Positions 8,897 through 23,992 of a DNA stretch of 64,000 nucleotides are shown piece after piece (the stretch's first letter is position 1; each line of letters starts with the position of its first letter). A model generated the notes under the pieces. It was not told the origin of the DNA and did not search any database. It saw only the letters and a list, made by a program, of their open reading frames with translations. A program made the translations under genes and the position numbers. The stretch spans positions 186,001-250,000 of the forward strand of contig NZ_JAMZFT010000004.1 of the NCBI RefSeq assembly GCF_024158125.1. The letters run 5' to 3'. Source of the DNA: Futiania mangrovi. Its GTDB lineage: Bacteria > Pseudomonadota > Alphaproteobacteria > Futianiales > Futianiaceae.

Positions 8897-9486
8897 CGTT
8901 GCCCCTCCCCGATCGCGGCGCCTGCCGCGCCCGTGATGTCGACCATGGACGAGAGCGTGAGAGTGACGGTCAGCACGGCATCCCGGTCGCGGCCGCGCCC
9001 GGCACCTGGCGCGGACACATCGAGTTGCTCGACGAACAGCAATGGCTGCACCTGCGCAAGCCGATGCAGAAATGGCGCCAGCGCATCGCCCGGCACGACG
9101 AGCGTGACGGCAACGGCTGCGAGATCGGGGGATGCCGACGCCGCGGTCCGGATCTGCGTTACGCGCCCTTCCGCCTCGCGCGCGGTTGCCTGCACCATTT
9201 GCTGGATACGCGCACGGGCCAGTTCCGCGGTCGATGCCGCGAGAAGCCCGAAATCCTCCGGGTCTGCCTCCCTGAGCGAATTGCGAAGCCGTTCCAGCGC
9301 ACCGAGGTCGCGCTGGCGCTGCTGCAGGGCGTCGAGGGTTCGTTCAAGCGTTCCGATTTCCGCATGGGCGACGCGATGTCGTTCGATGGCGGGCACGATG
9401 CCCACGATTCCGGCCACGGCGAGAGGCAGGAGGATGACTGCAAGGGCACGCATCCGCGTGGCGAGCCTGTCCCGGCGGGCGATCAT
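8893..9486 (-). CDS. gspM: Type II secretion system protein M
   Basis: 197 residues with a single N-terminal membrane segment (RALAVILLPLAVAGIVGIV), a coiled-coil rich in Gln/Leu/Arg (IGTLERTLDALQQRQRDLG) and a C-terminal ferredoxin-like domain, the layout of GspM-type assembly platform proteins. It partners with GspL in the inner membrane. Both ends overlap neighbours (ATGA with gspL and with the gspC-like gene). Sequence conservation in this family is low, so the call rests on architecture and position. Confidence 0.75.
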   Translation of the reverse strand: MIARRDRLATRMRALAVILLPLAVAGIVGIVPAIERHRVAHAEIGTLERTLDALQQRQRDLGALERLRNSLREADPEDFGLLAASTAELARARIQQMVQATAREAEGRVTQIRTAASASPDLAAVAVTLVVPGDALAPFLHRLAQVQPLLFVEQLDVSAPGAGRGRDRDAVLTVTLTLSSMVDITGAAGAAIGEGQR

Positions 9487-10526
9487 GGCCGCTCCCCCCG
9501 CACTCCGATCTGGGCGGAGATCGAAAACCTTTCGAGGGCCTGGCCCGGGTCGCGGGATATCGGGGCAGAAAGCCTCACGTCCGACAGGAGTGGCGAGGCC
9601 TCGAGAGGTGCGAGCAGCGCCGAGGCATCCTGCGCCAGCCCGCGAAGCGTGATCTCCGCGCCTGTCCACCGTGCATCCGTCAGATAGGCCTCGTCGGGAA
9701 GCGCAGCGGCGACGGCATCCAGCAACATCAGGGGCGAGATCTCACCGGCGCGCCGTTCTGCCGGGGCCCGCAGGCGTGCGGAGAGCCGGGCGATGTCGTC
9801 GTCCAGCGCCTGGGCCTGAAGCATCTCGTCTCTCAGGGTGGAGACGGCTGCCCTCAGCTGCGCAATCTGCGTCTGCTGGCGCTCTCCCTCGACATGCGAC
9901 AGCGCGGCTGCCCCCGCTGCAAGGATCAGCAGCCCGCCCGCAAGCAGCCAGGCGTTGCGCCGCGCCCTGCGCCGGCGGGTTTCGGGCGCGAAGTCTGGCA
10001 GGAAGGGCGCTTCATCGGGAACGGCGGCACTCGACGTCGCGCCATCCAGCCCTATGCCCAGGGCCGCGAGCGCCGTCCCGTGCGCCTTCAGGATATTCCG
10101 GGGTACGGCATAAACCGGGACCGCGATCCGGTCAGGACCGAGGGCGCGCGGCGCGCCCGTGTCGAAGATGACCTCGTCCTCGGTGAATGGCGTCAGTTCG
10201 GCCATGCGCAGCGCGACCGCCTCCCGCACGTCCTCGCTTGCCGCGGCAGGAAGGGTGGCGGTGACGGCGATCAGCGACGCCTCGTCCAGGTCGAGGTACA
10301 CGGCCCGCGCGCGCTTTACGGTGCGCACAACCTTCCGGTCGGGGGCTGCGGGGTCGAGGTGCGCAAGCGTCGCGCCGCCGGGCCCGGCCACCAAGTAGCC
10401 AGCGCCGTCAGGGCTCAGGCGGACCGTGCCGTTCGAGAAGGGCGCGGGCACATGCGCAAGCGCCTCGGTGAGCGGGCCATGCGACCGCCGCGGATCGCGT
10501 TTCAGGCGGGCGGACAGGCCGGTCAT
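9483..10526 (-). CDS. gspL: Type II secretion system protein L (cytoplasmic actin-like plus PilN-like domains)
   Basis: 347 residues. The N-terminal part (residues about 30-180) is a cytoplasmic GspL-type domain with ASEDVREAVALRMAELTPF and DRIAVPVYAVPRNILKAHG; a single membrane helix follows (AWLLAGGLLILAAGAAALS), then a periplasmic PilN-like coiled coil and ferredoxin-like domain. GspL recruits the GspE ATPase to the membrane platform. ATG 10526 overlaps the gspJ stop (ATGA); an upstream ATG at 10568 lies inside gspJ and was rejected. Confidence 0.82.
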   Translation of the reverse strand: MTGLSARLKRDPRRSHGPLTEALAHVPAPFSNGTVRLSPDGAGYLVAGPGGATLAHLDPAAPDRKVVRTVKRARAVYLDLDEASLIAVTATLPAAASEDVREAVALRMAELTPFTEDEVIFDTGAPRALGPDRIAVPVYAVPRNILKAHGTALAALGIGLDGATSSAAVPDEAPFLPDFAPETRRRRARRNAWLLAGGLLILAAGAAALSHVEGERQQTQIAQLRAAVSTLRDEMLQAQALDDDIARLSARLRAPAERRAGEISPLMLLDAVAAALPDEAYLTDARWTGAEITLRGLAQDASALLAPLEASPLLSDVRLSAPISRDPGQALERFSISAQIGVRGERP

Positions 10527-11116
10527 GGGCGCGCTCCGGCGCAGGCGGCGCGGCCCAATACCACGCAATCCGCCGCGTACCGTCCCCCCAGGGTCACGGC
10601 CAGCCAGAGCGGGGGCTGCCCGTCGGCGAAGTCGATTTCCGCCTCCAGCCGGCGGGGCAGAACGGACTGGCCGGCCCAGGTTTCCGCCGATCGGCTGTCC
10701 CGCCCGAAATACCGGAAGCGAAGGCTCGATATCCCCTCAATGAGCATGAGCGGACGCTCCTCCCCGGCAATCCGCAGTTGCAGGGTGTCGAGGGTTGGGT
10801 CGCGATAGATCTCGACCTCGCGCGGTCTCCCGCCGCCAAGCGCCAGCCCGTGGTGAGTTGCAAGGGTCAGGCGGTCGGGTTCGCCTGAAAAACGCATCGT
10901 CCCGCTGCCGGGCACGGGCGCGGCGGCCTGCGCGATCAGGTTGCGGAGCGTCGCCGCCGTCTCGATCCGGATACGCGCCGGTTCGGCCCGGTCCGGGCCC
11001 CGGCTCCACGCCCGCTGACCGAAGGTGAAGGCACCCGATAGCAGCAGGCCTGTCAGCGCCAGCACCATCAGGCCGACAAGTACCTCCAGCAGGGTCATTC
11101 CGCTCTGTCCGTTCAT
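10523..11116 (-). CDS. gspJ: Minor pseudopilin GspJ
   Basis: 197 residues with a type IV prepilin N-terminus: MNGQSG cleaved before MTLLEVLVGLMVLAL, Gly at -1 and Glu at +5, followed by a hydrophobic helix. The long C-terminal beta-rich domain (IEGISSLRFRYFGRDS, PRRLEAEIDFADGQPPLWLA) and the size fit GspJ, part of the I-J-K tip complex of the T2SS pseudopilus. ATGA coupling to gspI upstream and gspL downstream. Confidence 0.85.
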   Translation of the reverse strand: MNGQSGMTLLEVLVGLMVLALTGLLLSGAFTFGQRAWSRGPDRAEPARIRIETAATLRNLIAQAAAPVPGSGTMRFSGEPDRLTLATHHGLALGGGRPREVEIYRDPTLDTLQLRIAGEERPLMLIEGISSLRFRYFGRDSRSAETWAGQSVLPRRLEAEIDFADGQPPLWLAVTLGGRYAADCVVLGRAACAGARP

Positions 11117-11499
11117 CCGGGGCGCCCTCCCGCCGCTCCGGCCGGCGGGACATGCCGCAGCGTCGTCAGCACATGGACCGGGCGTTGGCTCTCCGGCGTG
11201 CGCACCGTGACCGTGACGCGCAGCAGCCGCGCGCCGGTGCCCTCGCCCGAGAGCGGGCTGGCAGACAAGACCCATTCGAGCCCTCTTTCCACGACCGGCG
11301 CTTGCGTGCCGGGGGCGGGGGCGGCGTCGAAACGGCCGATCGCGGTCTCGGCCAGTTCGACCGCGGTCAGCAGCGCCGCACTGCGCTGGCCCGCCTGTCC
11401 CGAAGATGCATAGACCTGGAGGAGCGGCACCAGCGCAAGCGCGGCGACGGCAAAGCCGATCACTGCCTCCAGGAGAGAGAAACCGGCGTCACTGCGCAT
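11113..11499 (-). CDS. gspI: Minor pseudopilin GspI
   Basis: 128 residues, prepilin leader MRSDAG then FSLLEAVIGFAVAALALVP (Gly -1, Glu +5). Short globular domain with AETAIGRFD and LLRVTVTVRTPE, consistent with GspI, the organiser of the pseudopilus tip with J and K. It overlaps gspH by 11 bases and gspJ by ATGA. Confidence 0.85.
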   Translation of the reverse strand: MRSDAGFSLLEAVIGFAVAALALVPLLQVYASSGQAGQRSAALLTAVELAETAIGRFDAAPAPGTQAPVVERGLEWVLSASPLSGEGTGARLLRVTVTVRTPESQRPVHVLTTLRHVPPAGAAGGRPG

Positions 11500-11941
11500 C
11501 GACCGCTCCCGTCAGCCAGTGGACGGCAACGGTGTGGCGCGCGTCCGCGGTGCGCAGCGTCAGCGATCCGCCGGTAGAGGTTCCGTCCGGGAAGAACACG
11601 ATCCTCCCCATGCCATCGTGCGCTGCCTCGCGCGCGAGGACCGCCTCCAGCCTGACAGACGTGCCGACGCGGACCTCGTGGGCCGGCCAGCCGATCCGGC
11701 CTGCTTCCGCGTCGATCTCGACCGCCACGGGCAGGCCGCTGCCGATGGCCCGGGTCCGCGCCGCCTGCAGGGTGTCCGCCGTCTGCTGGACGGCCGTCTC
11801 CAGGGCGGTGCGCCGCGCCGTGGCGCCGGTGACGTTTCCGATCGCCACCAGGGCGAAGCCCAGCAGGCTCAGCACGACGAGCACTTCGAGGAGCGTCAGG
11901 CCGCGTTCCGCCTCGCGTGCGTCAGTTGGCGATGTCTGCAT
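11489..11941 (-). CDS. gspH: Minor pseudopilin GspH
   Basis: 150 residues. The leader is MQTSPTDAREAERG followed by LTLLEVLVVLSLLGFALVAI, with Gly -1 and Glu +5. The domain contains RTRAIGSGLPVAVEIDAEAG and FFPDGTSTGGSLTL, a typical GspH/FimT feature linking the tip complex to the major pseudopilin. ATG 11941 gives a normal leader; the ATGs at 11968 and 12013 would lie deep inside gspG. It overlaps gspG by 20 bases. Confidence 0.87.
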   Translation of the reverse strand: MQTSPTDAREAERGLTLLEVLVVLSLLGFALVAIGNVTGATARRTALETAVQQTADTLQAARTRAIGSGLPVAVEIDAEAGRIGWPAHEVRVGTSVRLEAVLAREAAHDGMGRIVFFPDGTSTGGSLTLRTADARHTVAVHWLTGAVDAQ

Positions 11942-12359
11942 TCTGTCCTTCGCCCCCCGGTGCCCCATCGGCGCCCAGCGACCCGAGGCTGTAGCGATCA
12001 CCCTCCGGCACATAGAGGAACGGCCGTCCCCAGGGGTCCTCGATCGCGTTCTCCTTCTTCAGGTAGGGGCCCTGCCAGCCGGTCGCCGAGGCGGGCGCTT
12101 CGAGCAGCGCGCGCAAGCCTTCCTCGCGCGTCGGATAACGGCCCATGTCCAGGCGGTAGAGGTCGAGCGCCAGGGACAGTTCCTCGATCTGCAATTCTGC
12201 CGTCTGGTGCTGGGCCCGGCCGAAATAGCCCGAGAGCTGGACCGAAGCGAGCACGGCGAGAACGCCCAGGATCGAGATGACGATCAGGAGTTCGAGCAGG
12301 GTCAGCCCCTGCTCCCGGTTCCAGCGTCGTGCGGTCGGTGTCGGCATGGCGGTCTTCAT
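11922..12359 (-). CDS. gspG: Major pseudopilin GspG
   Basis: 145 residues, leader ending REQG then LTLLELLIVISILGVLAVLA (Gly -1, Glu +5). The GspG signature is very clear: IEELSLALDLYRLDMGRYPT, GLRALLEAP, WQGPYLKK and DPWGRPFLYVPEG, including the region that binds calcium in this family. It polymerises into the periplasmic pseudopilus that drives substrates through GspD. The ATG overlaps the gspF stop (ATGA). Confidence 0.95.
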   Translation of the reverse strand: MKTAMPTPTARRWNREQGLTLLELLIVISILGVLAVLASVQLSGYFGRAQHQTAELQIEELSLALDLYRLDMGRYPTREEGLRALLEAPASATGWQGPYLKKENAIEDPWGRPFLYVPEGDRYSLGSLGADGAPGGEGQNADIAN

Positions 12360-13573
12360 CCCAGGGCAAGCTCGTTGATGCTCAGCAGCGCGTTCAGGAT
12401 CGCGTAGACGAGGCCGGCGACGAGCACGCCGATCGCGACGGTCAGGGCCGGGGGAAGCATGCGCAGGAGCGCGTCCAGGGTTGCGCTGGCCTCCCGCTTC
12501 AGCATGTCCGCGACATCCGACAACATTCGTGGCAGCGTGCCCGAAGCCTCTCCGATCGCGATCATGCGCGCCGAACGGGGGGGCATGAGCGGTACCTCGG
12601 CCAGGGCCGCGGCCACGCCCGCCCCCTCGCGGATGCGTTCTGCCGCATGCGTCAGCGCGTCGCGGAACGTCGCGCTGGCGCAGGTTCGGCCGGCGAGTTC
12701 GACGGCGCGGTCGGCGGGGGACCCGCTTTCGAGCAGGCGGCCGGCGATCAGCAGGGCGCGGCCAAGATCCAGCCCGGCGGAAAGCCGGCCCGCCACAGGC
12801 AGCCGGAGAAACCAATGCGAGAGCGTCCGGCGTCCTGCTTCTGTCGACCGCATCGCCATTCCGGCCGCGATAGCGGCAAGCAGGGCACCCGCCGCAGGCA
12901 GCGCACCTACCCGCACCGCATCGCCGATGGCGAATATTGCCCGCGCACCGGCCGGGATGTCTGCGCCGGAGCCGGCGAAGATCCGCTCGAAGCTGGGCAG
13001 GACGTGAAAGATCATCAGGCCGATGGCCAGGAGCGCCGCCAGCAGGAGCGCCGCAGGGTAGAGCAGCGCACGGATCGTTTCGGACCGGGTCGCGATCATG
13101 TCGTCGGTCAGGCGCGCCAGCGTCGAGAGGGCGCCCGCCAGGTCCCCCGACGCCTCACCGGCCTCAAGCAGCGCAATGGACGGCGCGTCGAAAATCCGCG
13201 GCTCTGCCCGCAATGCGCGCGACAGCGGTTCGCCTGCCGCGGATCTTTGCGCCACCCTGCGCGCCAGCCGGGCAGCTGCATCCGTGCCGTTGCCGATCAT
13301 GTCGAGCGCCTGGTCGAGCGGGGCTCCGGCCTTGCGCAGAACGGCGAGATCGCGGGCAAAGTCGCGGCGCAGCGCAAGCTGCTTTCCCCGGCTCACGACG
13401 ACCTCCCGGCCCAGCAGGTCCATCAGCGGGCTGTGCCGCCCCGTGTCGAGGCGCAGCGGATCGAGCGCGCGTTCGCGAAGCTGGCGCACCGCGTCGGTGC
13501 GGTTTTCCGCGTCGACCTCTCCGTCGACGACGTCGCCCAGTCCGGTCAGGGCACGGTAACGATAGCGCCTCAC
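12356..13573 (-). CDS. gspF: Type II secretion inner-membrane platform protein GspF
   Basis: 405 residues from a GTG start at 13573, which overlaps the gspE stop (GTGA); the product begins MRRYRYRALTGLGDVVDGEV, the usual Y.Y.A....G....G start of GspF. Two cytoplasmic helical repeats (LRRDFARDLAVLRKAGAPLD and the later LGRALLIAGRLLESGSPADR) and three membrane segments (ALLYPAALLLAALLAIGLMI among them) define the family. It is the core of the assembly platform that couples the ATPase to pseudopilus growth. Longer in-frame extensions upstream are inside gspE and rejected. Confidence 0.93.
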   Translation of the reverse strand: MRRYRYRALTGLGDVVDGEVDAENRTDAVRQLRERALDPLRLDTGRHSPLMDLLGREVVVSRGKQLALRRDFARDLAVLRKAGAPLDQALDMIGNGTDAAARLARRVAQRSAAGEPLSRALRAEPRIFDAPSIALLEAGEASGDLAGALSTLARLTDDMIATRSETIRALLYPAALLLAALLAIGLMIFHVLPSFERIFAGSGADIPAGARAIFAIGDAVRVGALPAAGALLAAIAAGMAMRSTEAGRRTLSHWFLRLPVAGRLSAGLDLGRALLIAGRLLESGSPADRAVELAGRTCASATFRDALTHAAERIREGAGVAAALAEVPLMPPRSARMIAIGEASGTLPRMLSDVADMLKREASATLDALLRMLPPALTVAIGVLVAGLVYAILNALLSINELALG

Positions 13574-15240
13574 GTGCCGATCCTCCCGACCACGCGGGCG
13601 ATCTCGTCGAGGGAGGTTTCGCCCGCCGCGGCCTTGGCCAGCGCGTCGGCCATCAGCGGTACCATTCCGCGCTCGCCGGCGGCGCGGCGCACATCGTCGG
13701 TGTCGCCGCCCGACCTGATCGCCGCGCGCATCGCCTCGTCCACCTCGAGAACCTCCGCGATGGCCGTGCGTCCGTCGTAGCCGGTGTCCCGGCAGGTTGC
13801 GCAGCCCACCGGCGCGTGAACCTGTTCGAGGCGGATACCCAGCGTTGCCGCCAGATCGGCGGCTGCGGGCGGCGGCGCTACGGGCCTGCGGCAGGACGGG
13901 CATAGGCGGCGGACGAGCCGCTGCGCCACGACGCCGTTCAGAACTGCCGCGATCAGGAAAGGCTCGACCCCCATGTCGATGAGGCGCGGGATCGCCCCCA
14001 CGGCATCGTTCGTGTGCAGCGTGGCAAGCACCGGGTGACCGGTCAGTGCCGACTGGAAGCCGATCCGTGCGGTCTGGCTGTCGCGGATCTCGCCGATCAT
14101 CACCACGTCCGGGTCGTGGCGCAGCAGCTGCCGCAGCGCTTCGGGGAAGTCGAAGCCGATATCGGGGCGCACCTGGATCTGGTTGACGCCTTCGAGCCGG
14201 TACTCCACCGGATCCTCTATTGTGGCAATGTGGAGGTCCGGCCGGCTGATCCGCCGCAGGGCCGCGTAGAGCGTCGTCGTCTTGCCCGACCCGGTCGGCC
14301 CCGTGACGACGGTGACGCCGTGCGGCCGGTCGAGGAGCACCGCGAGCCGGTCCAAAGCCTGCCGCGACAGGCCGAGGCGTTCGAGTTCCGGCCTGTCTCC
14401 GCCACCGTCGAGAATACGCACAACCATGCTCTCGCCGTCGACCGTCGGCGCGACCGAGATGCGCAGATCGAGTTCGCGTCCCCGTATGACCAGACGGATG
14501 CGGCCGTCCTGCGGAAGCCGTGTCTCTGCAATATCGAGCCGGCCCATCAGCTTCAGGCGCGACAGGATGGCTGCCCGCAAGCCGGCCGGGGGGGAAGGGG
14601 TGTCCTGCAGGTGTCCGTCGATGCGCATCCGCACCCGCAATCCGCCCCCCGAGGGCAGCAAGTGTACGTCGGAGGCGCGCCGTTCGACGGCCTGGGCCAG
14701 CATGCGGTCGACGAAGCGGACGACGGGCGCATCGCTGGCGATCGATCTCAGCTTCTCGACGTCGCCGAGGTCGGCCTCGGCGGGGGCGGGGCCACCGTTC
14801 GGGTTGTAGAGACGGCGCAAGGCGGCATCGATGTCGGCTGGCCGCGCCGCGCGTGCGGCGACCTTGCGGCCGGTCTTCAGTTCGATGGCACGCCTGTGGC
14901 CGGTGTCCAGCGGGTCGGCCATGGCGACGACGAGCGCGTCCGGCTGCAGTGCCAGCGGCAGCACGCGCGCTCGCTCCATGTAGGACAGCGGCAGGTCGAT
15001 TCCCTCGACCGGAACGTCCGGGTATTCGGTGAGCGCTACCAGGTCCTCACCGAGCATGTGCGCATAGGCAGTTGCCAGTTCCGCCTCGGGCGCAAGACCC
15101 AGGCGCGCAAGGGCATGATCGAGCCGCAGGCCCTCCGCTTCGGCGGCCAGCCGCGCGCGGTCGATCGCCGCGGCGTCGACGACGCCGCGCTCCTTCAGGA
15201 TGTTGGCGACTGCCTCGGCACGGGGATCAGCCCTTTGCAT
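13570..15240 (-). CDS. gspE: Type II secretion ATPase GspE
   Basis: 556-residue hexameric secretion ATPase. Domains: N1E (residues about 10-130) with ATAYAHMLGEDLVALTEYPD; N2E with RRASDVHLLPSGGGLRVRMR; Walker A GPTGSGKTTT; Asp box TIEDPVEY; Walker B VVMIGEIRDSQTA; His box HPVLATLHTNDA; and a C-terminal zinc-type tetracysteine region (CPSCRRP and CATCRDTGYDGR). ATG 15240 preceded by GAAGGGCGG was chosen over upstream codons. Transcription of this gene may be partly independent of gspK-gspO because 119 bases with a hairpin separate them. Confidence 0.96.
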   Translation of the reverse strand: MQRADPRAEAVANILKERGVVDAAAIDRARLAAEAEGLRLDHALARLGLAPEAELATAYAHMLGEDLVALTEYPDVPVEGIDLPLSYMERARVLPLALQPDALVVAMADPLDTGHRRAIELKTGRKVAARAARPADIDAALRRLYNPNGGPAPAEADLGDVEKLRSIASDAPVVRFVDRMLAQAVERRASDVHLLPSGGGLRVRMRIDGHLQDTPSPPAGLRAAILSRLKLMGRLDIAETRLPQDGRIRLVIRGRELDLRISVAPTVDGESMVVRILDGGGDRPELERLGLSRQALDRLAVLLDRPHGVTVVTGPTGSGKTTTLYAALRRISRPDLHIATIEDPVEYRLEGVNQIQVRPDIGFDFPEALRQLLRHDPDVVMIGEIRDSQTARIGFQSALTGHPVLATLHTNDAVGAIPRLIDMGVEPFLIAAVLNGVVAQRLVRRLCPSCRRPVAPPPAAADLAATLGIRLEQVHAPVGCATCRDTGYDGRTAIAEVLEVDEAMRAAIRSGGDTDDVRRAAGERGMVPLMADALAKAAAGETSLDEIARVVGRIGT

Positions 15241-15329
15241 TGTCCGCCCTTCCGACACAAAACCGGAGAACGCAAACAACACTCCGAACGCCACACCGCA
15301 CGGTACGGCCATTCCCCAGGGCAATCAAC

Positions 15330-15354
15330 GCCGCGCCCGGTTGCCCGGCGCGGC
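15330..15354 (-). terminator. GC-rich hairpin just after gspO, upstream of gspE
   Basis: GCCGCGCC (15330-15337) is a perfect inverted repeat of GGCGCGGC (15347-15354), with a nine-base loop that could pair further. On the minus strand it comes directly after the gspO stop and is followed by TTGATTG rather than a T-run, so it may be a weak terminator, attenuator or mRNA-stabilising element between gspKO and gspE-D. Confidence 0.4.
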
Positions 15355-15359
15355 CCGCC

Positions 15360-15830
15360 TCATGCCGTGAGAGGGCCGAACATCCAAGTTATCCACAGGC
15401 CCAAAGCAAGAAAGATGCCGAGCGGAACCCGCGTGGCTGCATGAACCGTCTCGCCGCGCAGCTTCGCCATGGCGAGCGTTGCGGCCAGTGCCGCGAACGC
15501 CCCGATCAGGACGACGCTCGACAAGCCTTGCCAGCCCACCCACGCGCCCGCGGCCCCCATCAGCTTGGCATCGCCGAGGCCCAGGCCGTCGCGGCCGCGC
15601 AGGCGCCTGTAGGCGGCGGCAATCCCGGCGAAGGCGGCGAATCCGGCGAGACAGCCGATTGCCGCATCCGGCAGCACATCGGGCCTCAACAGGGCGGTCG
15701 AGACGAAGCCGCAGACCGCGAGCGCAAGGTTCAGCACGTCGGGGAGGACGTAGCGGCGCGCATCCGACACCGCGAGCGCGGCGAGAAGCACAGTCAGCAC
15801 CGCAGCCGAGGCCAGTTCCGGCGGATTCAT
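15360..15830 (-). CDS. gspO: Prepilin peptidase (A24 aspartic protease, short form)
   Basis: 156-residue polytopic membrane protease that cleaves the pseudopilin leaders. The two catalytic aspartates are visible: D23 in AVSDARRYVLPD and D87 in the GxGD motif (GLGLGDAKLMG). It lacks the N-terminal cytoplasmic domain with Cys pairs and methyltransferase activity of classical PilD/GspO, so it resembles CpaA/TadV-type short peptidases; N-methylation of the pseudopilins would need another enzyme or not occur. It is ATGA-coupled to gspK. Confidence 0.9.
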   Translation of the reverse strand: MNPPELASAAVLTVLLAALAVSDARRYVLPDVLNLALAVCGFVSTALLRPDVLPDAAIGCLAGFAAFAGIAAAYRRLRGRDGLGLGDAKLMGAAGAWVGWQGLSSVVLIGAFAALAATLAMAKLRGETVHAATRVPLGIFLALGLWITWMFGPLTA

Positions 15831-16651
15831 CTGGCAACGCCTCCAGCGTCCGGGAGCGGCGGCACCTCGCGGCGCCACGCCAGCAGCATTGGCAGTCCGG
15901 GCGTCTCGAGATCGACGATCGCTTCCCTGACGAACACGCTTCCATCGTCCATCCGGGCCACGGAACGAACCGTGTAAACGGGACGCGGAAGGGCGCGAAG
16001 GGGTGCCAGGAGCGCCTGTGCCGCGAGGGGCGGGGGCGTGCCCGCCTCGCGCGCGACAAGCACAGCCTCGGCCAGTGCCGGCGTCATTCCGGGCACGGCC
16101 AGCAGGACCTCCCGGGGCGCGGAGACCGGATCGATCCCGCCATGCCCGCCGTAGACCGTGAGAAACGCTCGGACCTTGCCGAAGGCCAGCGGATCGAGCC
16201 CAGCAACCGCGATCGCCTCTTCGGGCGCACGAAACACGCCGCCGGCTTCTGGTGCGCGATAGGCAAGGATGCGGCGCGCGGCTTCTGCCGGATCCGGCGT
16301 GCCAACGCCCGATACGCGAAGGAGCCGCTCGATCAGGATCGGCGCCCCGGTGTTGAGATCGACCTTGCCCGTTTCCGCGGTGACGGTGACCGTCACGTCG
16401 CCGGCCTCCAGGTCGGCCGTGAGGGTCAGGGGCACCCTGCGTTGCGCGGGATCGGCATGGTGCGCGAGGAAGAGTTCGTATCCCGCATCGGCTGCATGCC
16501 TTGCGCGCGCCTCCGCGGCAAGGGCTTGCGCGGCCTCCATATCCTCCCGGCCCCGTTCGACGAGGCGAAGCGCGAGCAGCGACAGGACACCGAGGAGCAG
16601 CAGGACAACAGGCAGGGCGAAGCCCCTGGCGGCCGCGCGCCGAGGCCCCAT
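15827..16651 (-). CDS. gspK: Minor pseudopilin GspK
   Basis: 274 residues. Leader MGPRRAAARG then FALPVVLLLLGVLSLLALRL; the +5 Glu of other pseudopilins is absent, as is normal for GspK, the pilus tip cap. The body has the GspK SAM-like region with GKVDLNTGAPILIERLLRVS and DPVSAPREVLLAVPGM. ATG 16651 has GGAG nine bases upstream and gives a standard short leader; ATGs at 16684 and 16702 lack such a site. It is the first gene of the T2SS operon, divergent from the cyclase gene; the 206 bases between them (16652-16857) show no clear promoter motif. Confidence 0.87.
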   Translation of the reverse strand: MGPRRAAARGFALPVVLLLLGVLSLLALRLVERGREDMEAAQALAAEARARHAADAGYELFLAHHADPAQRRVPLTLTADLEAGDVTVTVTAETGKVDLNTGAPILIERLLRVSGVGTPDPAEAARRILAYRAPEAGGVFRAPEEAIAVAGLDPLAFGKVRAFLTVYGGHGGIDPVSAPREVLLAVPGMTPALAEAVLVAREAGTPPPLAAQALLAPLRALPRPVYTVRSVARMDDGSVFVREAIVDLETPGLPMLLAWRREVPPLPDAGGVAR

Positions 16652-16857
16652 GGCCGCTTTCTCCGTGACCTCGTGCCTGGGCATTGCAATCGGCGCCCTC
16701 ATCGCGCAACCATGATTTCGCAGGCTACTCTTCTTTGCGCTTGCGGCAACAGGCGATAAGCCTTTTCGGACGTCGCGCATCTGGCCGCGTATTCGCATCG
16801 GCCGCCGGGGACGGATCAGCCAATTTCCGTCGTTATTCTGGGGTGGGCAAGGGTGCG

Positions 16858-19134
16858 ATGACGCGGTGGATGCACAGCATTACGTTCAGCGTTGCGACGA
16901 TACTGCTTGGCGTCGGGCTTCTCATCTCGCCGGTCGGCACCTTCATCGAGCGTGAATTCGGGTTGGGATGGCTGTTCATGATGCGGGGTCCGGCGGCTCC
17001 GCCGCCCGAAGTGGCGGTCGTCGGGATCAACAGCCGCAGCGGTCCCGATCTCGGGCTGGCGCGCCTGCCGCGTTTCTGGCCCCGCTCCCTGCATGGAACC
17101 CTCGTGCGGCGGAGCATGGAGGCCGGCGCCGAGGCGATGGTCTTCGATATGGACTTCAGCCAGCCGAAGGACCCGATCGACGACCTGCTGTTCGCTGATG
17201 CGGTGCGCGCTGCTGGCAGCGTCGTCCTGTTCGAGCGGCTGGACGGCCACAACGAGCGCCTCGTCAGCGGCAACAATGTGGAGCGGTGGGTCTGGGTCGA
17301 AACCTCCCAGCCGCCCGTGGAACCGCTTGCCGAGGCAGCCCGGGCCTATGCCCCGTTCCCGCTGCCCAAGATAGAGAAATCGTCGTTCCAGTTCTGGGCC
17401 TTCAAGCCGAGCGCCGACGACACCCCGACGACCGCCGCCGTCGCCGTGCAACTGGAGATGCTGGCCCATCACCAGGCATGGCGCGACATGCTCGACAGGG
17501 CAGGCGTGCCGTCCGACCTGGCGCCCCAGGCGGGTGCGCTGAAGGCGCCGGGGACGATCCGCGACTACATGAAGGGGCTGCGCAAGTATTTTCTCGGAAA
17601 GCCTTTTCTCGGCCAGCATATCCGCGACCTGGCGCAATCGGCGACGCTGACGCCGGAGGCACGCAACGCCGTCCTGATCCTGACCGCGCTCTACGCCGGA
17701 CCGGACGAGCGCTACACGAACTACTACGGCCCACCCGGAACGATTCCCACGCTCGGCTACCAGGACGTGGTTTCGGTCGAGGACCTCGGGGGTACGCCGG
17801 AGGCCGAGGCGTCCGAGGCGCGCACACGGGTGGAGGACAACGCGCGCGCTCTCGCGGGGCGGACCGTTTTTGTCGGGTACTCCGACCTCTACTCCCCGGA
17901 CCAGCCGGACCGTTTCTACACGGTATTCACCAGCGACCGCGGCATCGATCTGTCGGGCCTCGAGATCATGGCGACATCCTTCGCCAACCTGCTGACGGAC
18001 CGGACAATCGACCTGCCGCCCGCGTGGCTGTCGCTCCTGATCGTGACGTTGCTTGGCCTGGCGGCATCGCAGCTGCTGTTCTGGCCGTCCGCCTACATCG
18101 GGATCCCGCTGGTGCTGGCCGTGGGCGCGGCTTACGCCTATGGCGCCGCACACGTCTTCGCCCGCGACGCGCTCTGGCTGCCGATGGTCACGCCGCTCGC
18201 CGTGCAGATCCCGTTCGTGATCGTGGCGGGTCTGCTGGGCCAATACCTGATGGAGCGCCGCCAGAAGCTGCGCGTCGGCGCCGCGATGTCCCAATACCTT
18301 CCGGAGCATCTCGTCAAGGAACTGACGCAGGGGCGTGTCGACACGGCGAGCCTCAACCAGGTTGTGCACGGCGTCTGTCTCGCGACCGACATGTCCGGGT
18401 TCAGCACCATTTCGGAGAAGAAGTCTCCCAAGGAACTGGCTGCCTTCATGAACGCCTATTTCGAGGCGATCGCCCAGGCGCTGAAGCGGTGCAATGTCGA
18501 CGTCACCGAATTCCATGCCGACACCATCATGTGTGCGTGGATCGGCGAGCCGGAAGATCCCGATGTGCGCCGGAACGCATCGCGTGCGGCGCTCGAGGTG
18601 GTACGGGCGATCGAAACCTTCGCGGCCGACGACCCCGACGTGCGGCTGACCGCGCGGGTCGGGCTGCAGGACGGGCCCTTCTATCTCGGCCACACCGGCG
18701 GGGGCGGGCGGATGTCATATTCCATCCTCGGCGATCCGGCCAACAGCGCCGCACGGCTGGAGGGCCTCAACAAGAAGCTGGGCACGCGGATCCTCGCAGC
18801 CGCGACCGTCGTGGAGGGGCTGGACGACTTCACCATGCGCCCGATGGGGCGTTTCGGGGTGGTGGGCAAGGCCAAGCCGGTCCCGGTCGTGGAGATCGTC
18901 GTGCCGGAAGCCACGCCCGAGACGGATAGCGAAAGCCTGCGGCAGGGGTTCGCCGCCGGGCTCGCCGCCTTCGCCGCGGAACGCTGGGACGAGGCGCGCG
19001 CCGCGTTCGAAGCCCTGGCCGAGCGCTACCCGGCAGATCGCGCGATTGCCCTCTATCTCGACGTCAGCCGCCGTTACGCACAGGGGGAGGTCCCTCCAGA
19101 GGACCCGACAACGCTTACGATGACTGAAAAATAG
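16858..19134 (+). CDS. CHASE2-domain class III nucleotide cyclase, probably a guanylate cyclase
   Basis: 758 residues. An N-terminal membrane helix (about 8-28) is followed by a periplasmic CHASE2 sensor (about 40-375), three C-terminal membrane helices (about 380-465, e.g. LSLLIVTLLGLAASQLLFW), then a cytoplasmic class III cyclase domain (about 495-650). Metal-binding D511 (CLATDMSGFS) and D555 (FHADTIM) and the catalytic R633 (NSAARLE) are present. The residue four before the second Asp is E551 where adenylate cyclases have Lys, and the residue four before the Asp of GDPANSAARL is S622; Glu with Cys/Ser is the guanylate-cyclase pattern. A short C-terminal repeat-like tail follows. It probably senses a periplasmic signal and makes cGMP. 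ATG 16858 has AAGGG close upstream; a GTG at 16844 is not in this frame and was not used. Confidence 0.85.
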   Translation: MTRWMHSITFSVATILLGVGLLISPVGTFIEREFGLGWLFMMRGPAAPPPEVAVVGINSRSGPDLGLARLPRFWPRSLHGTLVRRSMEAGAEAMVFDMDFSQPKDPIDDLLFADAVRAAGSVVLFERLDGHNERLVSGNNVERWVWVETSQPPVEPLAEAARAYAPFPLPKIEKSSFQFWAFKPSADDTPTTAAVAVQLEMLAHHQAWRDMLDRAGVPSDLAPQAGALKAPGTIRDYMKGLRKYFLGKPFLGQHIRDLAQSATLTPEARNAVLILTALYAGPDERYTNYYGPPGTIPTLGYQDVVSVEDLGGTPEAEASEARTRVEDNARALAGRTVFVGYSDLYSPDQPDRFYTVFTSDRGIDLSGLEIMATSFANLLTDRTIDLPPAWLSLLIVTLLGLAASQLLFWPSAYIGIPLVLAVGAAYAYGAAHVFARDALWLPMVTPLAVQIPFVIVAGLLGQYLMERRQKLRVGAAMSQYLPEHLVKELTQGRVDTASLNQVVHGVCLATDMSGFSTISEKKSPKELAAFMNAYFEAIAQALKRCNVDVTEFHADTIMCAWIGEPEDPDVRRNASRAALEVVRAIETFAADDPDVRLTARVGLQDGPFYLGHTGGGGRMSYSILGDPANSAARLEGLNKKLGTRILAAATVVEGLDDFTMRPMGRFGVVGKAKPVPVVEIVVPEATPETDSESLRQGFAAGLAAFAAERWDEARAAFEALAERYPADRAIALYLDVSRRYAQGEVPPEDPTTLTMTEK

Positions 19135-19304
19135 TGCCAAATTGGACAATACACATTTCAATTTCTGAAAATGAATATGCAAAATTCCGCATTTTCATTG
19201 CGAAACATACAATTTTCATATAATTTTCTGTCTGCGTTTGTTGCGGTGGGCTCAGTTTCTCCTTTTGGGCATTGACCTCGCGTCAGCGGGGTGGGGGGTG
19301 AAGC
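19135..19304 (+). promoter_or_regulatory. AT-rich intergenic promoter/operator region
   Basis: About 100 bases here are strikingly AT-rich in a GC-rich neighbourhood. TGAAAATG (19166-19173) is a perfect inverted repeat of CATTTTCA (19190-19197); ATTTTCAT-like words recur at 19191 and 19212. A consensus TATAAT lies at 19219-19224 with TTGCGA at 19198-19203 (15-base spacing), a plausible sigma-70 promoter for the FecR-TPR gene. GGGGGGTGAAG precedes its ATG at 19305. An operator for an unknown regulator is likely. Confidence 0.5.
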
Positions 19305-22300
19305 ATGCGCGCCCATCTTGGCATGGGAGCCGCGGCGCTGTTTCTGGTGGCCGGTGCCGCCATGGAAAGTCATGCGGCAGACTCCCGAAGCTGCGATCAG
19401 TTGGCTGGCCGGGTCATTTCTGCCCAGGGCTCCGTCGAATACCGTGCCGGCAGCGACTGGCGCCGGGCCGGGCTCGACCAGGAACTCTGCGACCGCGATG
19501 CCATCCGTACCGGGGCGAACAGCCGCGCAGCGGTCCAGCTTGCCGACGATGCGGTCCTCCGCCTCGATGCGAACACCACCCTCGTCCTCTCAGACGTCAC
19601 GCCGGAACCGCAGGAGCGGTCCTTCCTTCAGCTGGTCGTCGGGGCGATCCACTCCTTCAGCCGCAGCCCGCGCACGCTGAAGGTCGATACGCCGTACATC
19701 AACGCGACGATCGAGGGCACGGAGTTCGCGCTGCGCGTCACCGAGACCGATTCCACGCTGACGGTCGTGGAAGGCCTGGTCGTCGCGTCCAACGACCGTG
19801 GAACGCTGGATGTGTCCAGCGGTTCGGCGGCCCGCGCCGATGCCACGAGCGCGCCGCGCAGTGTCGTCGTGGTGCGGCCGCGCGACGCCGTGACATGGGG
19901 TCTCTATTACCCGCCGGCGCTGTCCATGGAGCCGACGGCCGCGGTGGATCCGGCCTCGATGATCGAGGCCCAGCGCCTCGTCGAACGCGGCCGGACCGAT
20001 GCCGCTATTGCCCGCCTGCGCGAGGATGGAACGCCCACCATGCGCGCCCGGCTCTATCTCGCCTCGCTCTACATGTCGGTCGGACGTGCCGACGAAGCCC
20101 GCCAGGTTCTGGACGGGGTCCTCCGGGCCGAACCCGGCAATGGGGACGCCTTGGCCCTGAGCGCCGTCATCGACGTCGTGCGCAACGAGAATGCCTCGGC
20201 GATGACGAAGGCGCAGCGCGCCGTCGAGGTCTCGCCCGACAGTGCCGCGCCCTATATCGCGCTCTCGCTGGCGCAGCAGTCCGAGTTCCGGCTGGAAGAG
20301 GCGCGCGACACGCTGCTCGCCGGGGCCGCCCGCGTGCCGGACTCGGCGCTGATCCAGGCGCGGCTCTCGGAGATCTGGCTGTCGCTGGGCTATCGCGACC
20401 GGTCCGGCGAGGCTGCCGACCGGGCGCTCGCGCTCGATCCCGAACTTCAGCGCGCGCATGTGATGAAGGGGTTTGCGGCGCTGACCGAATACCGGACCGC
20501 CGACGCGAAGGCTGCCTTCGACAAGGCCGTCGTGCTTGACGAGGCAGACCCGATGCCCCGCCTCGGGCGCGGCCTCGCGCTGATCCGGGAGGGCGACCTG
20601 ACGGCGGGACGCGGCGAACTGGATGCTGCCGTCGCCCTCGACTCCAACCGGTCCCTGCTGCGCTCCTACCTGGGCAAGGCGTATTTCGAGGAGGAGCGTT
20701 CCCCGCTCGCGCGCGAGCAATACGTGATCGCCAAGGAACTCGATCCGCAAGACCCGACGCCGTACCTCTACGAGGCGATCCGTCTGCAGACGGAGAACCG
20801 GCCGGGCGAGGCGCTGGCGGAGATTCAGCAATCCATCGCGCGCAACGACAACCGCGCGGTGTATCGCGGGCGGCTGCAACTCGACCAGGATGCGGCTGCC
20901 CGCGGCGCGAGCCTCGGCCGGATCTACGAGGATCTGGGCTTCATCGCGCTTGGGATGCGTGAGGCAGCCCGCTCCCAGAACATCGACCCTGCCAACGCGG
21001 CGGCGCACCGGTTCCTCGCGGACCTCTACCGCAACGAGCGGCGGCGCGAACTGGCGCGGGTCAGCGAACTCACGCGCTCGCAGCTTCTGCAGGGCCTGAC
21101 CCTGAGCCCGGTGCAGCCGAGCCTGACGGAAACGAACCTCAACCTCGTGTCCTCGGGCGGCCCGGCCAATGCCGGGTTCAATGAATATACCTCGCTCTTC
21201 GACAGCGACGGGACGCGGATCACCGCGACGGGCAGCGTGGGCAACGACCAGACGCTCGGCGGCGAAGTGGCGGTCGCGGGGAGGCAGGGCAACGTGGCGG
21301 CCAGCCTCGGCATCTTCCAGTTCCGCAGTGACGGCTTCCGCTACAATTTCGATGCATCACACTCGATCTACAACGCTTTCGGTCAGTGGGCGGTGTCGCC
21401 CGAGGTGACCCTGCAGATCGAAGCCCGTCACCGCGAGACGGTGAACGGCGACCTCGCCATGAACTTCGATCCCGACGACTACGATCCGTATTTCGAGCAG
21501 TCGCTCCGGGACAACAGCCTGCGGCTGGGCATGAAGCTTGCGCCCGATCCGCGCAACACGACGCTGGTTTCGTTGCTCTATTCCCACCGCCGTGCCTCGG
21601 AAACGGCCACCCAGGGCTTCATCAACATCGGCCTGGGTCCGCAGCCGTTCTTCCTGAACACGAACATCGACGCAAAGTCGTTCCAGACGGAAGTTCAGCA
21701 CATCTACCAGGCCGATGCCTTCAACCTCACGTTCGGGGCGTCGATGACCTCCTCCGACGAGGAGAGCAACAGCTACTTCTCGACGGCGGTGCTGCCGCCG
21801 ATCGCGTCCGGGCTGCAGGCGCTCGATTCCGAGGATTACAGGGCCTATGCCTACGGCTCGTTCATCCTGCCGCAGGATCTCACGCTGACGGCGGGCCTCA
21901 GCCTCCAGGACTTCGAGAGCGGGCCGAAGGACGTCAGCGGCGTCAACCCGAAGTTCGGCCTCGAATGGCGGCCATTGCCGTCGGTGGCGCTCCGTGCCGC
22001 CTACACGCAGGTCATCAAGCCGCCGCTGGTGTCCAACCGCACGATCGAGCCGACGCAGGTCGCGGGCTTCAACCAGTATTTCGACGACGGCAACGGCGCG
22101 AAGTCCCGGCGTTGGGGCTTCGGCGTCGACTGGCAGATCAGCGACACCATGTTCGCCGGCGCGGAAGCCACGTGGCGGCGGATCGACGAACCGGTCCAGC
22201 TGACGCCGGCCTCTGCGATCTATCCCGACCACGAGGAAGAAACGCACAGGTTCTATTTCAGCATGTTGCCGCATCCGCGCGTCCCGGTCGGCATCGAGTT

Positions 22301-22694
22301 CGTCTACGACCGCTTCAAGGCCGAACCCAGCGTTCTGACGAACATCGGGCCCGTGCCTCTCGAGATGCAGACGTTCTCGATCCCGCTCACCGCGCGCTAC
22401 TTCGATCCGAGTGGCTTCTTTGGCGGCGTCCGGGCGACCTATGTGAACCAGGATGTCGAACGTGCCGCGGGCAGTGCCTTCGCGGACGGGCAGTCGGACT
22501 TCTTCGTCGTCGACGCGGACGTCGGCTACCGCTTCCCGAACAGGGCAGGCAGCTTCAGCCTCGAAGTGCGCAACCTGTTCGACTCCGGATTTTCCTACCA
22601 GGACGACGGCTTTCGCGAGTTCGGCGACGAGCCGTCGACCGGTCCCTATTTCCCGAGCGCCACAGTCATGGGGAGGCTGACGCTCAACTTCTGA
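19305..22694 (+). CDS. FecR-domain / TPR / outer-membrane beta-barrel fusion protein
   Basis: 1129 residues, exported (signal peptide MRAHLGMGAAALFLVAGAA, cleavage near SHA-A). Residues about 35-150 form a FecR-like domain (RVISAQGSVEYRAGSDWRR, LQLVVGAIHSFSRSPRTLKV, TPYINATIEGTEFAL). Residues about 215-600 are TPR-type helical repeats (ARLYLASLYMSVGRADEARQ, AHVMKGFAALTEYRTADAKA). From about 640 to the end is an amphipathic beta-rich region with aromatic girdles that ends in a terminal Phe (MGRLTLNF), like a TonB-dependent-receptor-type barrel but with no plug domain seen. Such a protein could be an outer-membrane scaffold or channel with a periplasmic sensing arm. It follows the CHASE2 cyclase and precedes a secreted unknown; the function is unknown. 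Confidence 0.75.
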   Translation: MRAHLGMGAAALFLVAGAAMESHAADSRSCDQLAGRVISAQGSVEYRAGSDWRRAGLDQELCDRDAIRTGANSRAAVQLADDAVLRLDANTTLVLSDVTPEPQERSFLQLVVGAIHSFSRSPRTLKVDTPYINATIEGTEFALRVTETDSTLTVVEGLVVASNDRGTLDVSSGSAARADATSAPRSVVVVRPRDAVTWGLYYPPALSMEPTAAVDPASMIEAQRLVERGRTDAAIARLREDGTPTMRARLYLASLYMSVGRADEARQVLDGVLRAEPGNGDALALSAVIDVVRNENASAMTKAQRAVEVSPDSAAPYIALSLAQQSEFRLEEARDTLLAGAARVPDSALIQARLSEIWLSLGYRDRSGEAADRALALDPELQRAHVMKGFAALTEYRTADAKAAFDKAVVLDEADPMPRLGRGLALIREGDLTAGRGELDAAVALDSNRSLLRSYLGKAYFEEERSPLAREQYVIAKELDPQDPTPYLYEAIRLQTENRPGEALAEIQQSIARNDNRAVYRGRLQLDQDAAARGASLGRIYEDLGFIALGMREAARSQNIDPANAAAHRFLADLYRNERRRELARVSELTRSQLLQGLTLSPVQPSLTETNLNLVSSGGPANAGFNEYTSLFDSDGTRITATGSVGNDQTLGGEVAVAGRQGNVAASLGIFQFRSDGFRYNFDASHSIYNAFGQWAVSPEVTLQIEARHRETVNGDLAMNFDPDDYDPYFEQSLRDNSLRLGMKLAPDPRNTTLVSLLYSHRRASETATQGFINIGLGPQPFFLNTNIDAKSFQTEVQHIYQADAFNLTFGASMTSSDEESNSYFSTAVLPPIASGLQALDSEDYRAYAYGSFILPQDLTLTAGLSLQDFESGPKDVSGVNPKFGLEWRPLPSVALRAAYTQVIKPPLVSNRTIEPTQVAGFNQYFDDGNGAKSRRWGFGVDWQISDTMFAGAEATWRRIDEPVQLTPASAIYPDHEEETHRFYFSMLPHPRVPVGIEFVYDRFKAEPSVLTNIGPVPLEMQTFSIPLTARYFDPSGFFGGVRATYVNQDVERAAGSAFADGQSDFFVVDADVGYRFPNRAGSFSLEVRNLFDSGFSYQDDGFREFGDEPSTGPYFPSATVMGRLTLNF

Positions 22695-22737: not shown

Positions 22738-23946
22738 ATGACAGTGCGTACGAGACTTACTGCTGCTATCGCCGGGCTGGCGCTTTCCGCCGGCGCGGTG
22801 TCGCCTGCGCTTGCGCAATCCGATTACATCGACGACGTGCCGATCCAGCGCTCGACCAACACCGTCGTGCGGAACATCCCGCTCGACAGCTTCAAGGAAG
22901 CGGACATCGGCTACCTGGTGGACCTGATGCTCCAACAGTGCGAGTCGCCGGTGACGCAAATGGTGAACGCCAGCTACCGCCGGATTTCCAACGCACCCGG
23001 TCCCGTCCTGGCGACGCCATCCTCCGCGAACGCCAACCATGACTATGTCGTCTGGGATTCGGGAAGCGGTTTCAACCCGAACAAGTCGATCCGGGTCAGG
23101 GCGTCCGAGATCGCCGAGCAAATCGGCGTCAACCCGGGCGTGAACCTGGACGCGGACCCCGACACGCAGACGAAATCGGATGCGACCGGCACCTACGACA
23201 CCCTGACGATCCGGGACATCACCAGCTTCAGCCCGGCTCTCGCTGCGGCGGTCCAGCTTGTCGACGCCGGCAACAATGCGGCCGGGTTCGATGCCATCAT
23301 GGGCATCAAGAACGGCACGCCGAAGACCGCGTTCGTGGTCTGCGACATGAACATGTACTATGTCGAGAACGGCCAGCTCTATTACGGCGTCAAGAACTTC
23401 AAGCTGCTGGAGCCTGTGAACCGCCTTCTCGTGTTCTGGTCGATGGGAAGCTCGGCAGCGGGAACGGTTCCGGCAATGGATGCGTTCTGCGCGGCGATGA
23501 ACCCGCCGGCTGTCGCCTCCGATCCGCGCACCAACCCGCTCGCCGCGGTGCCGGACCCGGAAAGCTCCGACCCGCGGGACTTCTCGAGCAGCTACGCCAA
23601 CACGCACCTGCTGCGCGAGGGGCTGACGACCAGCGTGACAGGCAACACGATCATCGTCTATGGCGACAACACGGGGCGCCGTTCCACCAACTCGGCGGCG
23701 GCGAACCACACGGCGTGCGAAGGCAGCAAGGCGTCGGCAAAGACGGCCTTCTGCGATCCGACCGAGCCCATACCGGACACGGATGCGGGTGAGGTTTCGG
23801 GCAACGCCTGCATCAAGAAGAACGGCCGTCCGACGGTGCCGGACGTCAAGCTGCACACCGCGAACGGCAGCAATACGAGCTGCCTGTCGAGCCTCAGCGG
23901 CGGCTGGATCGTGACCGATCCGTGCAACCCGTGGGGCAGATTCTGA
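22738..23946 (+). CDS. Exported eight-cysteine protein of unknown function
   Basis: 402 residues; signal peptide MTVRTRLTAAIAGLALSAGA, cleavage near ALA-Q. The mature part has eight Cys (even number, compatible with disulfides), for example in LMLQQCESPVTQM, AFVVCDMNMYYVENGQLYYG and WIVTDPCNPWGRF, and no membrane segment. I do not recognise the family. AAGGGAG sits eight bases before the ATG at 22738; the GTG at 22729 is less likely. It lies 43 bases after the FecR-TPR-barrel gene and ends at a strong terminator, so the two form a transcription unit. A secreted or periplasmic ligand of the barrel/FecR protein, or a type II secretion substrate, are possible roles (inference from context only). 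Confidence 0.6.
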   Translation: MTVRTRLTAAIAGLALSAGAVSPALAQSDYIDDVPIQRSTNTVVRNIPLDSFKEADIGYLVDLMLQQCESPVTQMVNASYRRISNAPGPVLATPSSANANHDYVVWDSGSGFNPNKSIRVRASEIAEQIGVNPGVNLDADPDTQTKSDATGTYDTLTIRDITSFSPALAAAVQLVDAGNNAAGFDAIMGIKNGTPKTAFVVCDMNMYYVENGQLYYGVKNFKLLEPVNRLLVFWSMGSSAAGTVPAMDAFCAAMNPPAVASDPRTNPLAAVPDPESSDPRDFSSSYANTHLLREGLTTSVTGNTIIVYGDNTGRRSTNSAAANHTACEGSKASAKTAFCDPTEPIPDTDAGEVSGNACIKKNGRPTVPDVKLHTANGSNTSCLSSLSGGWIVTDPCNPWGRF

Positions 23947-23958
23947 CGGAACCAACGG

Positions 23959-23992
23959 GGCGCCGCGGCCGTTCGCGGCGCCTCCTTTCCTT
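23959..23992 (+). terminator. Rho-independent-type terminator
   Basis: Perfect nine-base stem GGCGCCGCG (23959-23967) / CGCGGCGCC (23974-23982) with a six-base loop, followed by a pyrimidine-rich tail TCCTTTCCTTCTT. It lies just after the stop of the secreted protein gene and ends the cyclase-side plus-strand unit before the convergent nitroreductase gene. Confidence 0.75.

Follow-up and report, generated by a model that had tools for sequence, protein, structure and literature searches.

A putative NsrA-type receptor with a predicted plugless barrel lies beside a CHASE2 nucleotide cyclase in Futiania mangrovi

The stretch of DNA analysed here (hereafter, the window; 64,000 nucleotides of Futiania mangrovi contig NZ_JAMZFT010000004.1, positions 186,001 to 250,000) carries a gene for a CHASE2-containing nucleotide cyclase, a gene for a large putative receptor and a gene for a secreted protein (Table 1). 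The cyclase, for which a longer open reading frame with a TTG start begins at 16684, matches the Pfam families CHASE2 (2.7e-17) and Guanylate_cyc (6.7e-11). The receptor reading frame occupies exactly 19305-22694 (+), encodes 1129 aa and ends in ...GRLTLNF, with a terminal Phe. Its neighbours are as the original prediction, made from the sequence alone, had described them: the CHASE2 cyclase upstream and, downstream, a secreted protein with no Pfam match at E 5. Terminator-like sites such as the hairpin beyond the secreted-protein gene were found four times in the region, compared to 3.4 expected. On the minus strand, a Type II secretion cluster adjoins the cyclase gene (window 9483-16798), with genes for E, F, G, H, J, a PilN-like protein, a prepilin peptidase and an HHH_3 protein that may be K.

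Table 1. Features of the receptor locus, in window coordinates
Feature	Position	Strand	Basis or remark
CHASE2 and class III nucleotide cyclase, 758 aa, putative inner-membrane partner	16858..19134	+	Pfam
Weak sigma-70-like promoter match in the AT-rich cyclase-receptor gap	19143..19172	+	9/12 positions
Putative NsrA-type receptor gene, 1129 aa: signal peptide, FecR, TPR array, predicted plugless 22-stranded barrel	19305..22694	+	
Predicted signal peptide, about aa 1-25	19305..19379	+	Read from the translation
FecR domain, aa 65-159	19497..19781	+	PF04773, E 4.7e-16
TPR superhelix, about aa 216-594	19950..21086	+	TPR Pfam matches; paired helices in model
TonB-receptor-type beta barrel, predicted 22 strands, aa 636-1129, plugless	21210..22691	+	Model, fold matches, PF00593
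Secreted orphan protein, 402 aa, 43 bp past the receptor gene	22738..23946	+	Third-gene position
Terminator-like hairpin 3' of the secreted-protein gene	23957..23984	+	12-bp stem, 10 G-C pairs, T-rich tail

The open reading frame and the Pfam matches confirm that a FecR domain, a TPR array and a C-terminal barrel domain are joined, in that order, in one secreted protein. Several Pfam TPR models match across aa 221-488, and the TonB_dep_Rec_b-barrel family (PF00593) matches aa 722-1091 (E 1.1e-13), while Pfam detected no plug domain. The architecture is shared by relatives: FecR and TPR matches are present in 17/17 aligned sequences, and the 25 families listed by Pfam for these 17 include no plug family. 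The signal peptide, predicted barrel and terminal Phe all agree with insertion of the protein into the outer membrane, which we consider its probable location.

A sequence search with a profile of the barrel found no match among PDB chains, and the fold was therefore compared instead. An AlphaFold2 model of the barrel region only (aa 600-1129, six sequences in the alignment) has 22 strands, with a pLDDT of 71 and a pTM of 0.70. Foldseek gave a best E of 1.9e-16, with TonB-dependent receptors among the matches listed; with VIA-align the best match reached Z 21.2 (rmsd 3.4 over 397 residues) and top Z scores were about 18-21, in a listing made up of TonB-receptor relatives only, such that missing porins there carry no weight. 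The fold matches listed by the two programs are TonB-dependent receptors and one related SusC-type transporter. A full-chain model, also built with six sequences, is weak (pLDDT 58, pTM 0.38). It has beta strands between aa 33 and 187, helices in pairs between 216 and 594, of low confidence beyond about aa 500, and 22 strands between 638 and 1128, and is too weak to place the FecR and TPR domains relative to the barrel. In the models, about 40 residues link the final TPR helix to the first barrel strand, too few to accommodate a plug. The models thus support a 22-stranded barrel of the TonB-receptor type that lacks a plug, in keeping with the barrel-like C-terminus and missing plug first noticed in the sequence.

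This barrel bears on two other ways of reading the protein. It shares the 22-stranded fold with TonB-dependent receptors such as FecA, BtuB and Fiu, and since a FecR domain is also present, it could be a degenerate siderophore-type transporter or transducer in which FecR links uptake with transcription in the manner of FecA-FecR-FecI. We regard this as quite improbable: TPR and FecR domains precede the barrel, the short linker holds no plug, a sigma factor is not encoded adjacently, and FecR is N-terminal in a secreted 1129-aa protein flanked by a cyclase and an orphan rather than part of a membrane anti-sigma factor. A second reading, which we judge unlikely though less so than the first, is that of an export porin resembling BcsC, PgaA or Slam-type proteins, which would release a polysaccharide or the secreted protein of the adjacent gene through a wide barrel, under regulation by the cyclase. 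BcsC and PgaA do indeed place a TPR array in the periplasm ahead of a C-terminal barrel, a barrel without a detected plug could be open, and the gene immediately after the receptor in the window encodes a secreted protein, with small secreted proteins at that position in many relatives. The barrels of BcsC and PgaA, however, have 16 strands and that of Slam 14, and the window protein differs from BcsC and PgaA in barrel type, FecR domain and gene neighbours as well. Polysaccharide-porin models score far below their cut-offs (BcsC, 23.5 bits vs 858, through the TPRs only), no synthase gene is adjacent, and both the known homologue and the conserved partner described below belong to signal perception and sensing. 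The suggestion of an envelope complex with a sensory or transport role is well supported for sensing alongside the cyclase, given adjacency conserved across distant bacteria and the relationship to NsrA, and found no support for transport.

That relationship is to NsrA of Sinorhizobium meliloti, the outer-membrane receptor by which this symbiont senses its plant host and which works through the adjacent CHASE2 adenylate cyclase CyaK; for its function we rely on later papers and on the CP140934 annotation, in which a family member is annotated nsrA and is followed by cyaK. A profile of the window family aligned with a rhizobial NsrA profile over 1019 columns (hhalign, E 4.8e-43), and BLASTP of the window protein against NsrA returned matches in the FecR-TPR part (1e-17) and the TPR-barrel part (8e-11). 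Identity is only about 20-26%, and by these comparisons the window receptor is a distant homologue of NsrA along nearly its full length. The two proteins are of similar length (1200 aa for NsrA vs 1129 aa), have the same FecR-TPR-barrel order and are each encoded next to a CHASE2 class III cyclase, so the original statement that the locus matches no known system no longer holds: the window copy is a divergent form of the NsrA-CyaK kind, which is known in outline. The arrangements differ in that the cyclase gene lies upstream of the receptor in the window and downstream in S. meliloti (pSymB), where nsrA and cyaK are adjacent and overlap, and in that the secreted orphan follows the receptor in the window.

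Other genomes contain the same domain order. Scanning genome contigs yielded full-length relatives: Thiocapsa has one (47%), as do a Syntrophobacteraceae MAG (41%), a symbiont from the Gammaproteobacteria (34%) and a second MAG (28%). In a survey with a profile built from 17 sequences, the family was found in 48/369 genomes and 40/272 genera of a sampled class (that of G102) judged gammaproteobacterial by its sequence neighbours in the tree, and in 7/385 sampled alphaproteobacterial genomes. Members on rhizobial plasmids are annotated as FecR protein or TonB-dependent receptor. In the tree, the window protein falls beside Thiocapsa and a second genus with a support of 99, outside the rhizobial NsrA clade and together with other mostly gammaproteobacterial members. 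The literature searched describes NsrA-CyaK in a single plant symbiont; the family now extends to many other genera.

The CHASE2 cyclase gene of the window lies 170 bp upstream of the receptor on the same strand, which is the neighbour expected of the NsrA type. In a listing of 61 family loci, 44 have a CHASE2 gene no more than 0.5 kb from the receptor, mostly upstream on the same strand, with downstream positions in rhizobia, Methylocystis and some MAGs. A CHASE2 neighbour is absent at 13 loci, two of which are cut by contig ends; CHASE2 genes lie elsewhere in seven further searched genomes that have none at the receptor locus, and also in the f48 genomes. Pairwise distances between receptors and their adjacent cyclases are correlated (r 0.86, 40 pairs; 0/2000 permutations as high), a correlation that can partly reflect shared descent. 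That receptor and cyclase are accidental neighbours without functional relation appears very improbable in this light. The 170-bp gap and the eleven relatives with usable flanks that lack a CHASE2 neighbour would fit such an explanation, as would the promoter match in the gap, which is not strong evidence (one found vs 0.6 expected by chance); adjacency kept in distant genomes despite differing gene order largely refutes it, and the distance correlation and the NsrA-CyaK precedent argue against it as well. At one locus (L096:2306-5798) the cyclase is replaced by a CHASE2 histidine kinase with a sigma-54 response regulator, indicating that the element kept throughout is CHASE2 rather than the cyclase.

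The pairing of FecR with CHASE2 genes also extends beyond the NsrA-type family and, taken generally, far exceeds chance. In a sample of 200 genomes, 22 of the 74 FecR genes among the matches listed have a listed CHASE2 gene no more than 5 kb away, a count that is not a rate, compared to about 0.25 expected were positions random in a 4-Mb genome. Exactly two FecR and two CHASE2 genes were found in the F. mangrovi genome itself, and they form two neighbouring pairs; in the second (G000:C1:339941-341418, L024), a CHASE2 cyclase gene comes immediately after the FecR gene. The view that FecR domains normally belong to anti-sigma regulators or to periplasmic proteins that stand alone leaves out this frequent context. 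A FecR-domain envelope protein beside a CHASE2 sensor is also known from the BiofilmReg operon of Burkholderia contaminans, which encodes a LysM-FecR protein and a CHASE2 histidine kinase; unlike the window locus, its output is a histidine kinase and response regulator, and a TPR array or barrel is not reported (PMC5192318). In magnetotactic bacteria, the gene for the periplasmic TPR-fold protein MtxA is likewise followed by a CHASE2 cyclase gene, whereas MtxA combines Ig-like and TPR folds in about 35 kDa and has no barrel, in a paper that does not mention FecR (PMC4439547).

Many family loci possess a further gene directly after the receptor. In about 21 loci, many of them gammaproteobacterial, it encodes a small secreted or lipid-anchored protein; 17 of these loci built the model and four more were found with it. 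A six-sequence model found the protein strongly in L080 and L081 and weakly in five more, at the same position. The loci concerned are L080, L081, L084-L086, L088, L089, L091-L095, L102-L105, L107-L109 and L003. These proteins are about 90-150 aa long, carry a DxxGxxIxP-like motif and match no Pfam family, and they probably represent a third component of the receptor loci. For the 402-aa protein that holds this position in the window, a search of the family loci and of 366 other alphaproteobacterial genomes found no relative; the Type II secretion cluster could export it.

Taken together, the evidence favours the window protein being an NsrA-type outer-membrane signal receptor that acts via the adjacent CHASE2 cyclase, a reading to which we assign a probability of roughly three in four. 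In S. meliloti, sensing of signal 1 requires both NsrA and CyaK (PMC7529298), and cAMP from CHASE2 cyclases rises upon signal sensing via NsrA (PMC13001267). The cyclase CyaD1 produces cAMP constitutively when its CHASE2 domain is missing (PMC5498481); CHASE2 thus acts as a restraint on the cyclase. By analogy, the homology to NsrA makes it most likely that the window pair works alike. The plugless barrel would take up or bind an extracellular signal, and the periplasmic TPR and FecR regions would bridge the space between the membranes and make contact with CHASE2 in the inner-membrane cyclase of the neighbouring gene. This contact might then lift or otherwise change the restraint that CHASE2 places on the cyclase, and the resulting cyclic nucleotide would be read by a Crp-type regulator. 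Crp-type cNMP-binding regulators are present at three family loci, which fits a transcriptional output.

The window cyclase keeps the metal-binding Asp pair and the transition-state Asn and Arg (D, D, N and R, aligned with CyaK 414, 460, 543 and 547). At the position of the substrate Lys of adenylate cyclases (CyaK K456), the window and Thiocapsa cyclases have Glu, giving a Glu/Ser substrate pair in the window compared to Lys/Ser in CyaK. Glu at this position occurs in guanylate cyclases, so the identity of the messenger is uncertain. The gammaproteobacterial cyclases mostly have Asp paired with Arg, with the full Asp/Arg pattern in 25/47. In the cyclases of L002, L003 and L080-L109, Asp/Arg replaces the Lys/(Asp,Thr,Ser) pair of class III enzymes and the catalytic residues are intact; judging from these residues, the substrate of the Asp/Arg cyclases may be a nucleotide other than ATP. 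Between them, the Glu/Ser pair of the window and the Asp/Arg pair of most gammaproteobacterial relatives make messenger identity a testable question.

A broader proposal, which we offer tentatively and consider possible rather than probable, is that FecR domains generally serve CHASE2 sensors as partners in the periplasm, the NsrA-type receptor being the form that extends to the cell surface. The receptor loci would then belong to a widespread modular trans-envelope pathway, with cyclase and histidine kinase outputs swapped, a third secreted component, and a cyclase using a substrate other than ATP in gammaproteobacteria and the window. To our knowledge, few routes exist by which an outside signal crosses the two membranes of a Gram-negative cell to reach a cytoplasmic second messenger, and we know of no other recognition targets of CHASE2. 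With CHASE2 retained as the partner while outputs differ, the putative FecR-CHASE2 contact is the testable joint. What stands out is the breadth of the family, the swap of the CHASE2 partner, the third gene and the changes at the substrate positions of the cyclase. At one further locus, where no CHASE2 gene was found (L017:4786-14171), a receptor copy lies between a 1003-aa gene without a Pfam match and a gene encoding a TIR-nSTAND1-FGE-sulfatase protein.
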